Positions 57,006 through 64,000 of a DNA stretch of 64,000 nt are shown one piece after another. The notes beneath the pieces were generated by a model, which was not told the DNA's origin, ran no database searches, and worked only from the letters and a program-made list of their open reading frames with translations. Position 1 is the first letter of the stretch, and every line of letters begins with the position of its first letter. The stretch comes from Pseudotabrizicola algicola (GTDB lineage: Bacteria > Pseudomonadota > Alphaproteobacteria > Rhodobacterales > Rhodobacteraceae): NCBI RefSeq assembly GCF_010915705.1, contig NZ_JAAIKE010000001.1, forward strand, positions 248,001 to 312,000. The letters run 5' to 3'. Made by a program: the position numbers and the translations under genes.

Positions 57006-57147
57006 GGTGTTACCTTTCCGGGATTGCGCGCAATATAGGAAAATGCGCGATACTCTCAACCCCTTGTCCTGCGCAACCTTCACCTTCGCTTAAGTCTGAT
57101 GGGTCACCCTCGCCGGTATCCGTGAGGACCAATGGGAAGTTTTGGCC

Positions 57148-57426
57148 ATGTATCTCAAACGTGTTGATGGCCCGCGACAGGTGACCTTGCCCGATGGCAG
57201 CATTCTGACACGGGCGGATTTGCCTGCGCCCGACACGCGCCGCTGGGTGGCCAGCCGCAAGGCGATCGTGGTGCGGGCGGTCGTGCATGGCCTGATCACC
57301 GAGGCGGAGGCGCTGGAGCGTTACGCCCTGTCGGAAGAGGAATTTGCGCTCTGGCGTCAGGCGGTTGCCCAGCATGGCGAGAAGGCTTTGAAGGTCACGA
57401 CTATCCAGAAGTATAGACAACTTTAA
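57148..57426 (+). CDS. sciP: CtrA inhibitor SciP (DUF1153)
   Basis: Helix-turn-helix protein of 92 residues that fits DUF1153/SciP from end to end: YLKRVDGPRQVTLPDGSILT, RRWVASRKAIVVRAVVHGLI, and ALERYALSEEEFALWRQAVA. In Caulobacter SciP binds CtrA and blocks transcription activation at CtrA targets; in Rhodobacterales it is coded next to ctrA, as here. ATG 57148 was chosen. Ninety-three bases containing CtrA-type sequence separate it from ctrA. Confidence 0.9.
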   Translation: MYLKRVDGPRQVTLPDGSILTRADLPAPDTRRWVASRKAIVVRAVVHGLITEAEALERYALSEEEFALWRQAVAQHGEKALKVTTIQKYRQL

Positions 57427-57519: not shown

Positions 57520-62481
<4,962 letters not shown>

Positions 62482-62497
62482 CCAAAAATCTTAATTT

Positions 62498-62550
62498 GTT
62501 CCCGAATGTTCTTAAAAAGTTCTTTACAGACACGGGGAACGTGTGAGAAC
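62498..62550 (+). promoter_or_regulatory. LexA (SOS) box cluster upstream of the 39-residue membrane peptide
   Basis: GTTCTTAAAAAGTTC at 62508-62522 is an exact GTTC-N7-GTTC, the alphaproteobacterial LexA site. A further GTTC at 62498-62501 stands six bases before it, and two GAAC (62537-62540, 62547-62550) with 6-base spacing follow in opposite orientation. The cluster lies 30-80 bases before the preferred start codon and overlaps the likely promoter. Confidence 0.75.
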
Positions 62551-62580
62551 AATATGGCAACAAGCAAGCAGGAGGATGCC

Positions 62581-62700
62581 ATGGTTGCCCAAGTCAAGGA
62601 TATCGTCACCCGGTCCCGCGCGACGCTGATCGAAGATCTGGCGGGTGTCGCGGCCCTGTTTGCCACGCTTTTTGTCTGCCTGTCCTTTACCTCGTTCTGA
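62581..62700 (+). CDS. SOS-controlled small membrane protein (39 residues), SidA-like candidate
   Basis: A 39-residue protein: a short amphipathic, charged N-terminus (MVAQVKDIVTRSRATLIEDL) and one C-terminal membrane helix (AGVAALFATLFVCLSF). GGAGG lies five bases before ATG 62581. An in-frame ATG at 62554 would give 48 residues but has no ribosome-binding site. It is flanked by a LexA box cluster upstream and a perfect terminator downstream, so it is a self-contained SOS unit. Size, topology and control resemble Caulobacter SidA, a 29-residue inner-membrane division inhibitor. There is no proven homology, and a division role is inference. Confidence 0.72.
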   Translation: MVAQVKDIVTRSRATLIEDLAGVAALFATLFVCLSFTSF

Positions 62701-62781
62701 CACTGCCTGCGGTCTGCCCGATCGCGCGCCCCGCACCTGTCCCCAAGTGGTGCCCCTTGCGCGCAACAGACACGCCACTTG

Positions 62782-62814
62782 CCGCCGCATGTCACTGACA
62801 TGCGGCGGTTTTTT
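62782..62814 (+). terminator. Rho-independent terminator of the SOS micropeptide gene
   Basis: A perfect 13-bp inverted repeat (CCGCCGCATGTCA / TGACATGCGGCGG) centred on one base (effective loop about 7) is followed by TTTTTT. Confidence 0.92.
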
Positions 62815-62827
62815 CACTCAGGGGCCG

Positions 62828-64000
62828 TCATTCAAAGGCATAGGCCAGACGCAGGCCGCCCCAGTGCCGCCCCTTGACGCGGATCGGGGCGGAGACGTCT
62901 TTCATCATTGCAAACGTGCCGCCGCCCATGTCGCGGCGATAGACTTGCAGCAGGAAGGGTTCGGTATTGCGTCCGGCCCCCAGACCGACGCGGTCGTCGA
63001 AGATGCGGCGGTTGCGGCAATGGGCGGCGTTCCAGACTGGATCACGGCTTTGCGGGGCGCTGAACTTTGCGTTGTGGGTCGGCAGATAGCCGTTGCGGTC
63101 CACCGCCGCGCAGAACACGATTCGCGGGTCCATCGTCAGGACGGTTTCCTGCACCGCCGGGAAGAGCCTGTCCGTCAGATCGGTGAACGGGGCGAGCAAC
63201 TGTTCGGGGTTGGTGCCGGGGATCGGGCGATAGCGCTGGTCGAACAGGGTGGCGAGCGGGATCTCGCCGCTGTCAACGGCCGCGTCCAGCCGCGCGCCGA
63301 GTTGTCTGGCGGCGTCGCGCACAAGGTTGATCATCGGCCCGTCCGCCGAGCGCGCGCCCAGTTGCACCGCCTTTTGCACCAGCCTTTCGCTCAGCCCGAT
63401 CAGGCCCGAGGTTTGTTCGCGCGCGCGGGTCATGCCGGTGGCGGTGGTGTCGGACGCGGTCAGCAATGCGTCAAACAGGGGGGTGAAGGTGTCATTCGCG
63501 GCCTGCACCCTTGCGGCGGATTGCGCGATGCCTTGCGCCGCCATCTGTCCCGAGCGGACGCTTTGCGCGATGTCACCCAGCGCGGTGTCGATCCCTGCCG
63601 CGCCGGTCAGAGCATCGCCCGCCCGCACCGCCACCTGTTCCGCCTCGGTGCGCAGCCCGCCGATCCCGTTCGTCAGCCCGTCGATGGCATGGCGGATAGC
63701 CTCTGTCGCTTTTGCGGTGCGACGCGACAGGGCGTTGATTTCATCCGCAACCACGGCAAAGCCGCGACCGGCGCTGCCGGCATGGGCCGCTTCGATCTTG
63801 GCGTTGATGGCAAGGATGTTCACCTGCATGGCGATTTCACCAATCTGGTGCGCCGATTTCTGCATCTCGGTCAGGGTGCCCGCCACCGAGAGCATCCGCG
63901 CGGCCAGGGTCTGCACCCATTCGGCAACGTGCTGGCTTTCCACGTTGCTGTCGCGGATCTGGCGCGAGGAGTGTTCCACGCCTTCCAGCGTCTGCGCGAC
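62828..64000 (-). CDS. Methyl-accepting chemotaxis protein, cytoplasmic type (N-terminus cut by window edge)
   Basis: At least 390 residues are visible and the frame stays open to the right edge. The MCP signalling domain is unmistakable: [40 protein letters not shown] and [20 protein letters not shown], the hairpin tip that contacts CheA/CheW. It is followed, rather than preceded, by a C-terminal domain of about 130 residues with [60 protein letters not shown] and [12 protein letters not shown]. That domain appears in soluble alphaproteobacterial chemoreceptors and may sense redox state or a small ligand. No membrane segment is seen in the visible part. The true start lies beyond position 64000. 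Confidence 0.9.

Follow-up and report, generated by a model that had tools for sequence, protein, structure and literature searches.

A LexA-type box and a micropeptide gene form a conserved unit behind recG in Rhodobacteraceae: a candidate SOS-controlled membrane peptide

We examined the window, that is, the whole 64-kb stretch of DNA analysed here, and found an SOS-type unit at 62498-62814, which consists of a LexA-type box, a promoter, a ribosome site, a single-helix peptide (mostly of 36-42 residues in its family) and usually a terminator. This observation on the sequence is confirmed. As the best explanation of the whole, we lean towards a one-gene SOS unit, whose membrane micropeptide would pause division. 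Its parts, together with the upstream neighbour recG, are as follows.

60397..62481, + strand: recG (DNA helicase; NCBIfam NF008164, 1109 bits), the upstream neighbour, outside the unit proper
62498..62501, + strand: accessory GTTC half-site, 10 bp upstream of the main box
62508..62522, + strand: operator 1, the LexA-type box GTTC-N7-GTTC with an A-tract spacer, GTTCTTAAAAAGTTC
62523..62528, + strand: presumed -35, TTTACA, assigned from position and variation
62547..62561, + strand: putative operator 2, GAAC-N7-CAAC, inverted relative to operator 1 and covering the presumed -10 and transcription start
62570..62575, + strand: ribosome-binding site AGGAGG
62581 (ATG) to 62700 (TGA), + strand: 39-codon gene MVAQVKDIVTRSRATLIEDLAGVAALFATLFVCLSFTSF, with a predicted N-terminal helix (2-11) and a long membrane helix (13-38)
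62703..62716, + strand: 3' untranslated motif CTGCCTGCGGTCTG, found as CTGCCTGCG within 40 nt of the stop in 24 of the 30 best loci
62781-62809 with a T-run to 62814, + strand: intrinsic terminator, a hairpin with a 13-pair stem

The sequence-only reading had described an exact GTTC-N7-GTTC at 62508-62522 with extra GTTC/GAAC half-sites, and these are present (the extra ones at 62498, 62537 and 62547, the GAAC at 62537 standing besides that of operator 2). The 39-codon gene, the strong ribosome-binding site and the terminator of that reading were likewise all found in place (62570-62814). The box abuts the presumed -35, and 58 bp separate its end from the start codon. An earlier in-frame ATG at 62554 was dropped as the start, being missing in several relatives of the same genus. 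When the box is considered alone, its occurrence is about that of chance: the window contains 3 matches to GTTC-N7-GTTC against 1.0 expected, a number reached in 5 of 100 shuffles, and in the whole genome the motif is matched 56 times forward and 52 times in reverse, compared with 89 and 95 times for its reversed control. It is the conservation across relatives that led us to take the box as real.

In order to follow this conservation from the peptide side, we searched the 39-residue peptide on its own. At a threshold of E 1 the peptide matched 46 of 101 genomes, and it was found in all 15 other genomes of the same genus that were searched. Loss of the frame in close relatives, which had been named as evidence against the unit, was seen in none of the 15 same-genus genomes checked. 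Two class-level matches of this search lie inside long frames and look like chance. The best 30 loci were aligned blind to their promoters (the peptide-selected set), and operator 1 was present as the exact box upstream of the peptide in 30 of 30, so that peptide and GTTC-N7-GTTC are conserved jointly, a point that had been proposed as a check. With a profile made from a 48-member family alignment (A1), 137 of the 149 family genomes gave a match at a threshold of E 0.1, 126 of them at E 1e-4 or better, and reading of the DNA showed that 10 of the 11 weaker matches and two genomes without a match hold the unit, which in G185 and G016 was recognised by eye. By our own count from profile and DNA reading, the unit is present in 138 of 149 family genomes, normally behind recG, and the strong peptide match occurs once per genome throughout the family. 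G048 and G177 were left out of the DNA reading and are among the 11 genomes outside this count. No unit was read behind recG in G164, G023, G109 and G032, and neither recG nor the unit was detected in G044, G114 and G029. G145 holds a very divergent candidate unit, and G150 is cut at a contig end.

Strong matches of profile A1 in 289 genomes of the class were confined to the four that belong to the family; in the other 285, a sample that may not include Caulobacter, the best E was 0.0049 and the matches lay mostly inside long frames. We rejected a mobile origin, since the promoter string described below gave no match in viral contigs and one family peptide gave none in phages and plasmids. A suspected paralogue at C25:156848 is a weak piece (E 0.0099) within a 227-aa frame and was treated as chance.

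The promoter was searched as the string GTTC-N7-GTTCTTTAC-N12..22-GAACAA. It occurs exactly once in each of 95 of the 149 family genomes, with 0 occurrences of the reversed control among the matches listed. In 94 of those 95 genomes, a peptide match follows within 250 bp downstream on the same strand; the exception is G109, in which the string has an atypical spacer and no unit stands behind recG. The reading frame was present in all 30 loci fetched from the 95 string-bearing genomes. When the GTDB species collection was scanned with the same string, at least 118 stretches were obtained, and the 80 listed form the promoter-selected set. Among these listed matches, the titles are Rhodobacterales or unspecific alphaproteobacterial or pseudomonadotal ones, a script recovered the reading frame in 75 of 80, and two more were still coding at the end of the stretch. 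The remaining three are Paracoccus loci (L132, L186 and L207), where we observed 31-residue peptides without the N-terminal helix.

Comparison of these loci revealed several constant features of the promoter. First, the accessory GTTC is found in 27 of the 30 best peptide-selected loci and in 64 of the 80 promoter-selected loci among the matches listed. Second, a site of the operator 2 form GAAC-N7-nAAC lies between the box and the start codon in 30/30 best peptide-selected loci, and its AAC half, which is outside the searched string, is present in 80/80 promoter-selected loci among the matches listed (72 spelled CAAC, three GAAC, three AAAC and two TAAC); the background frequency of AAC at this distance after a GAAC is 111 of 2510 cases in the same 80 loci, units included. 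Several distant genomes carry an exact GAAC-N7-GAAC at this place. The putative second, inverted operator over the presumed -10/+1 is a new observation of this analysis. Third, among the units without the exact string, 29 of 36 keep an exact GTTC-N7-GTTC and seven have a degenerate operator 1 (the 36 are 40 fetched loci minus the profile false hits L335, L337 and L338 and minus L332, which has the exact promoter string). One of the seven reads GTTC-N7-GATC, which we take to be a Rhodobacter sphaeroides variant, and the lexA gene of that genome has an ordinary box. The -35 varies between genera (TTTACA, TTGACA, TTGCAT, TGGACA), and the presumed -10 is poor in sequence and unsure in placement. 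A consensus scan of 61900-63400 on both strands gave no sigma-70-like promoter by its own thresholds and missed the presumed promoter of the unit as well. A GGAG- or AAGG-like site precedes the ATG in most aligned loci when judged by eye.

We also considered a leader hairpin (GGCAAC/GUUGCC) that would mask the ribosome site, seen by eye in the same genus and in three Paracoccus loci. It was dropped because the presumed transcription start lies inside the hairpin and the minimum-energy fold pairs the region otherwise. The leaders of Paracoccus L132, L186 and L207 show by eye hairpin-like arms around the ribosome site, the letters of which differ between species.

GTTC-N7-GTTC has been described as the LexA motif of Alphaproteobacteria in the available text of two papers (PMC3323433; PMC8565304). 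This 11-bp direct repeat also stands no more than 80 bp upstream of lexA in every one of 27 readable family loci, which are what is left of 30 given loci after two from other families and one mis-positioned at a contig edge (L061) were set aside. At recA, an exact box within 300 bp upstream was found in 10 of 14 readable family loci and was absent in four. In the genome of the window itself, 20 chosen stretches were read out of 108 sites, with lexA and recA picked on purpose, and boxes adjoin lexA, recA, uvrA, a uvrD/pcrA-like helicase, an IMS-type polymerase and an SRAP gene, while several others adjoin genes without a known SOS role. The claim of an SOS unit is well supported by comparison, in that the box is conserved with the peptide, the same box stands at lexA, recA, uvrA and others, and the string occurs once per genome. 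Judged from this sequence evidence, regulation of the unit by LexA is very probable.

Genomes that lack the unit were compared at lexA in a second, hand-picked set with missing or divergent units, of which 10 of 13 have the lexA box. No lexA was found in G044 and only the C-terminal half in G114, and the unit is undetected in both; in G023 (82% complete) neither lexA nor the unit was found. The lexA genes of G164 (L385) and G032 (L390) have no exact GTTC/GAAC box in the 130 upstream bases, and the unit is undetected there too. G109 and G029 keep the lexA box while the unit was not found, which indicates that the unit is dispensable. Since recG was not detected in G044, G114 and G029 either, the loss of the unit there may be one event at the locus, and because these genomes were picked for a missing or divergent unit, we read the pattern of co-loss as support and not as a test.

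Other boxes in G000 drew our attention in passing. Two similar-looking reading frames of 98 and 101 codons, L369:832-1125 (-) and L370:841-1143 (-) on contigs C3 and C23, have an identical LexA-type box GTTCCTGTTATGTTC 36 and 26 bp upstream; one of them begins MESTTFALPSTPKQIAYARSLALRNQTLLPWEVQQDRR, neither belongs to a Pfam or NCBIfam family, and it is possible that they are further unannotated SOS genes. On contig C25, at L363:3132-3975 (+), GTTC-N7-GTTC overlaps the first listed codon of a Dam-type adenine methyltransferase frame, which may be SOS-controlled with a later true start or may be a chance case.

The DNA-damage context of the unit had been proposed from its place behind ligA and recG, and the recG part turned out to be sharper than claimed. 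In each of the 80 promoter-selected loci among the matches listed, the end of recG lies 5 to 545 bp before the box, and recG is present in 29 of the 30 best peptide-selected loci. From 99 class genomes with recG, we read 30 recG loci: the two family loci each show a LexA-type box in the 350 bp downstream of recG, and none of the 28 outside the family has one within this distance, one of the 28 having a box just upstream of recG instead. In G049, box, promoter and peptide stand together between unrelated genes away from recG, and nothing of the unit is left behind the recG of that genome. This arrangement is the best evidence that promoter and peptide constitute one functional cassette.

Three further genes of the window lie close to the unit. 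SciP (57142-57426, +) and CtrA (57520-58227, +) are encoded just upstream of a putative ligA frame (58169-60400) and recG, which places the micropeptide in a neighbourhood of cell-cycle and repair genes. On the other side, a convergent gene with a methyl-accepting chemotaxis signalling domain (62828-64000, -) runs off the window.

That the 39 codons are a translated gene, as had been claimed, is supported by selection and by a conserved start, ribosome site and length. The median dN/dS is 0.25 in 118 same-genus pairs, indicating purifying selection, and the differences by codon position number 1004, 714 and 1856; both point to coding selection, with the qualification that the dN/dS value and the helix-face test given below come from small samples of related sequences. 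The peptide set contains 138 coding sequences with 129 distinct peptides, 80 of which are 40 residues long, and the rough family pattern is M-x3-IK-x4-RS-x2-TL-x2-D-x2-G-x3-L-x3-L-x3-L-x2-P, with T in the window peptide where most members have P37. Since the choice of coding sequence at the promoter-selected loci demanded D-x-x-[GS], which inflates the conservation of D19 and G22, their constancy was taken from the 30 unbiased peptide-selected loci, where both are retained; by eye, E replaces D19 in two distant members. Within residues 15-37, conservation shows a helical periodicity (p=0.009), and hydrophobicity shows none that is significant (amphipathic moment, p=0.19). Net charge has a mode of 0 and a range of -3 to +3, and lies within 1 of zero in 110 of 129 peptides.

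The earlier claim of one membrane helix agrees with prediction. The AlphaFold2 model of the 39 residues has helices at 2-11 and 13-38 (mean pLDDT 87.9, pTM 0.48), and the mean is hydrophobic from about residue 20 to 36, so that membrane insertion of the peptide is well predicted. The window peptide has no match in Pfam or NCBIfam; searches with 48 members gave stray single-member matches only (best E 0.0034 in PHROGs and 0.024 in Pfam), and the best E in a search of the PDB was 0.62.

Downstream of the gene, CTGCCTGCG occurs within 40 nt of the stop in 24 of the 30 best peptide-selected loci, and a looser form in 46 of 75 promoter-selected loci among the matches listed. By regular expression, a GGCGG-like end with a T-run follows 29 of the 30 best peptide-selected frames, and a GC-rich hairpin with a T-run follows 64 of 75 readable promoter-selected loci among the matches listed. 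An RNA element as such was rejected, because Rfam gave nothing above gathering on the region and the transcript folds without excess stability (z -0.87; 34 of 200 shuffles fold as well); the 3' motif is kept as a side observation.

In SOS, DNA damage activates RecA and LexA is cleaved. We propose that, in undamaged cells, LexA would occupy two operators of opposite orientation, the first adjoining the -35 and the second covering the -10/+1, and would hold the promoter closed, a mode of repression suggested by sequence and conservation. Upon damage, active RecA and LexA cleavage would allow transcription of a short mRNA, which carries a strong ribosome site and in this genome ends at a terminator of its own. 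The peptide is then predicted to insert into the inner membrane, its basic N-terminal helix staying on the cytoplasmic side, and the conserved helix face formed by D19, G22, L26, L30 and L34 (and by P37 in most of the family, not in the window) would bind a specific membrane partner. This partner would most likely be the late divisome (FtsW/FtsI/FtsN), and septum synthesis would pause until repair is done, like the action of SidA in Caulobacter. We regard the peptide as a probable checkpoint effector of the SidA type that forms a separate sequence family; division as the target has in our estimate about an even chance.

If the partner is not the divisome, the LexA-controlled micropeptide might act on another inner-membrane machine, such as a respiratory or transport complex, DNA uptake, a protease or a sensor kinase. 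No computed result singles out a division protein; the conserved helix face argues for some specific partner and no finding names which, and the place behind recG, near ctrA and sciP, would suit several cell-cycle or DNA-uptake roles. We nevertheless consider this somewhat unlikely, since the small damage-induced single-helix peptides with known targets in the available text of PMC4211646 (SidA and the LexA-independent DidA) act on division.

It is improbable that the unit encodes a type I toxin of the TisB/DinQ kind, which would depolarise the membrane under SOS, slow the cell non-specifically and be held in check by an antisense RNA. Toxins of this kind have a cationic amphipathic helix, whereas the net charge here has its mode at 0 and residues 15-37 show no significant amphipathic moment (p=0.19). 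Further points against such a toxin are the single strong match per genome in 138 of 149 family genomes, the transcript folding without excess (z -0.87) and the absence of a promoter-like site on either strand in 61900-63400, by the scan that also missed the unit's own promoter. What the unit would share with DinQ (PMC3567139) is control by LexA, a small size and a single hydrophobic helix.

The half-sites could also be the target of a different regulator, such as an activator acting on a promoter whose -10 is poor, in which case the unit would not be under SOS control. They abut the -35, the A-tract spacer is unusually constant and a third half-site follows the 10-bp spacing; against this, the same half-sites stand as an 11-bp repeat before lexA in 27/27 readable loci and, in this genome, before other repair genes, and they match the LexA motif published for the class (PMC3323433; PMC8565304, in the text available), and we regard another regulator as quite improbable. 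Least probable of all is that the RNA is the working product, namely a small regulatory RNA marked by its conserved 3' motif and its terminator, with the peptide secondary or part of a dual function: the motif is frequent (24/30 best peptide-selected loci, loosely 46/75 promoter-selected ones among the matches listed), but codon positions (1004, 714, 1856) and dN/dS 0.25 reveal selection on the coding sequence, loci without the motif still have the peptide, e.g. Paracoccus L132, Rfam has no match above gathering and folding is no better than in shuffles.

Returning to the micropeptide that would pause division under LexA control, we tentatively extend it, with somewhat less than even confidence, to an SOS checkpoint effector of the whole Rhodobacteraceae, that is, an ancient unannotated micropeptide family, separate in origin from SidA, with a dual-operator LexA promoter about once per genome in a cassette tied to recG. 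If this is true, the helix face would reveal a new contact of the septal synthase or a new SOS target outside division. The unit is a concrete candidate for the division stop after damage, and as one strong copy per genome it can be deleted or induced in those standard laboratory strains, marine or phototrophic, in which it occurs. LexA has been linked to the gene-transfer agents and the CtrA circuit of this family, according to the available part of PMC6473078, and the unit is a further conserved candidate for an SOS gene there. Moreover, a short gene with a strongly conserved promoter can escape every annotation library used here.

What we consider new is a membrane micropeptide, very probably under SOS control, whose sequence family and promoter design are its own. 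The gene is undescribed in the open literature searched, in which no description of a Rhodobacterales protein that halts division after DNA damage was found either. LexA regulation of recG has been predicted in some alphaproteobacteria (PMC3323433, section 7), whereas the site described here lies downstream of recG and before a gene of its own, which that section does not mention; the predicted control of recG may partly reflect sites near recG.

Among known systems, SidA of Caulobacter crescentus, a 29-aa inner-membrane division inhibitor that is induced by SOS and acts on FtsW (PMC4211646, in the text available), is similar in its LexA-type control, its tiny single-helix membrane peptide and its alphaproteobacterial host, and it is plausible that the unit is a functional analogue. 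By description, SidA has 29 residues against 39 here, and the unit has its own pattern D-x-x-G-x(3)-L-x(3)-L-x(3)-L, most often with x-x-P after it, its usual place behind recG and two putative operators. DidA of the same species, which binds FtsN, is likewise a small single-helix membrane protein of the DNA-damage response, but it is longer (71 aa) and is induced by DriD independently of SOS (PMC4211646, same text). DinQ and TisB of Escherichia coli, which are toxic peptides induced by SOS and paired with antisense RNAs (PMC3567139, in the part available), resemble the unit in LexA control and in a tiny hydrophobic peptide. In contrast to them, no antisense partner was seen here by the promoter scan that also missed the unit's own promoter, and the unit is distinguished by near-neutral charge, family-wide conservation and one strong copy per genome.
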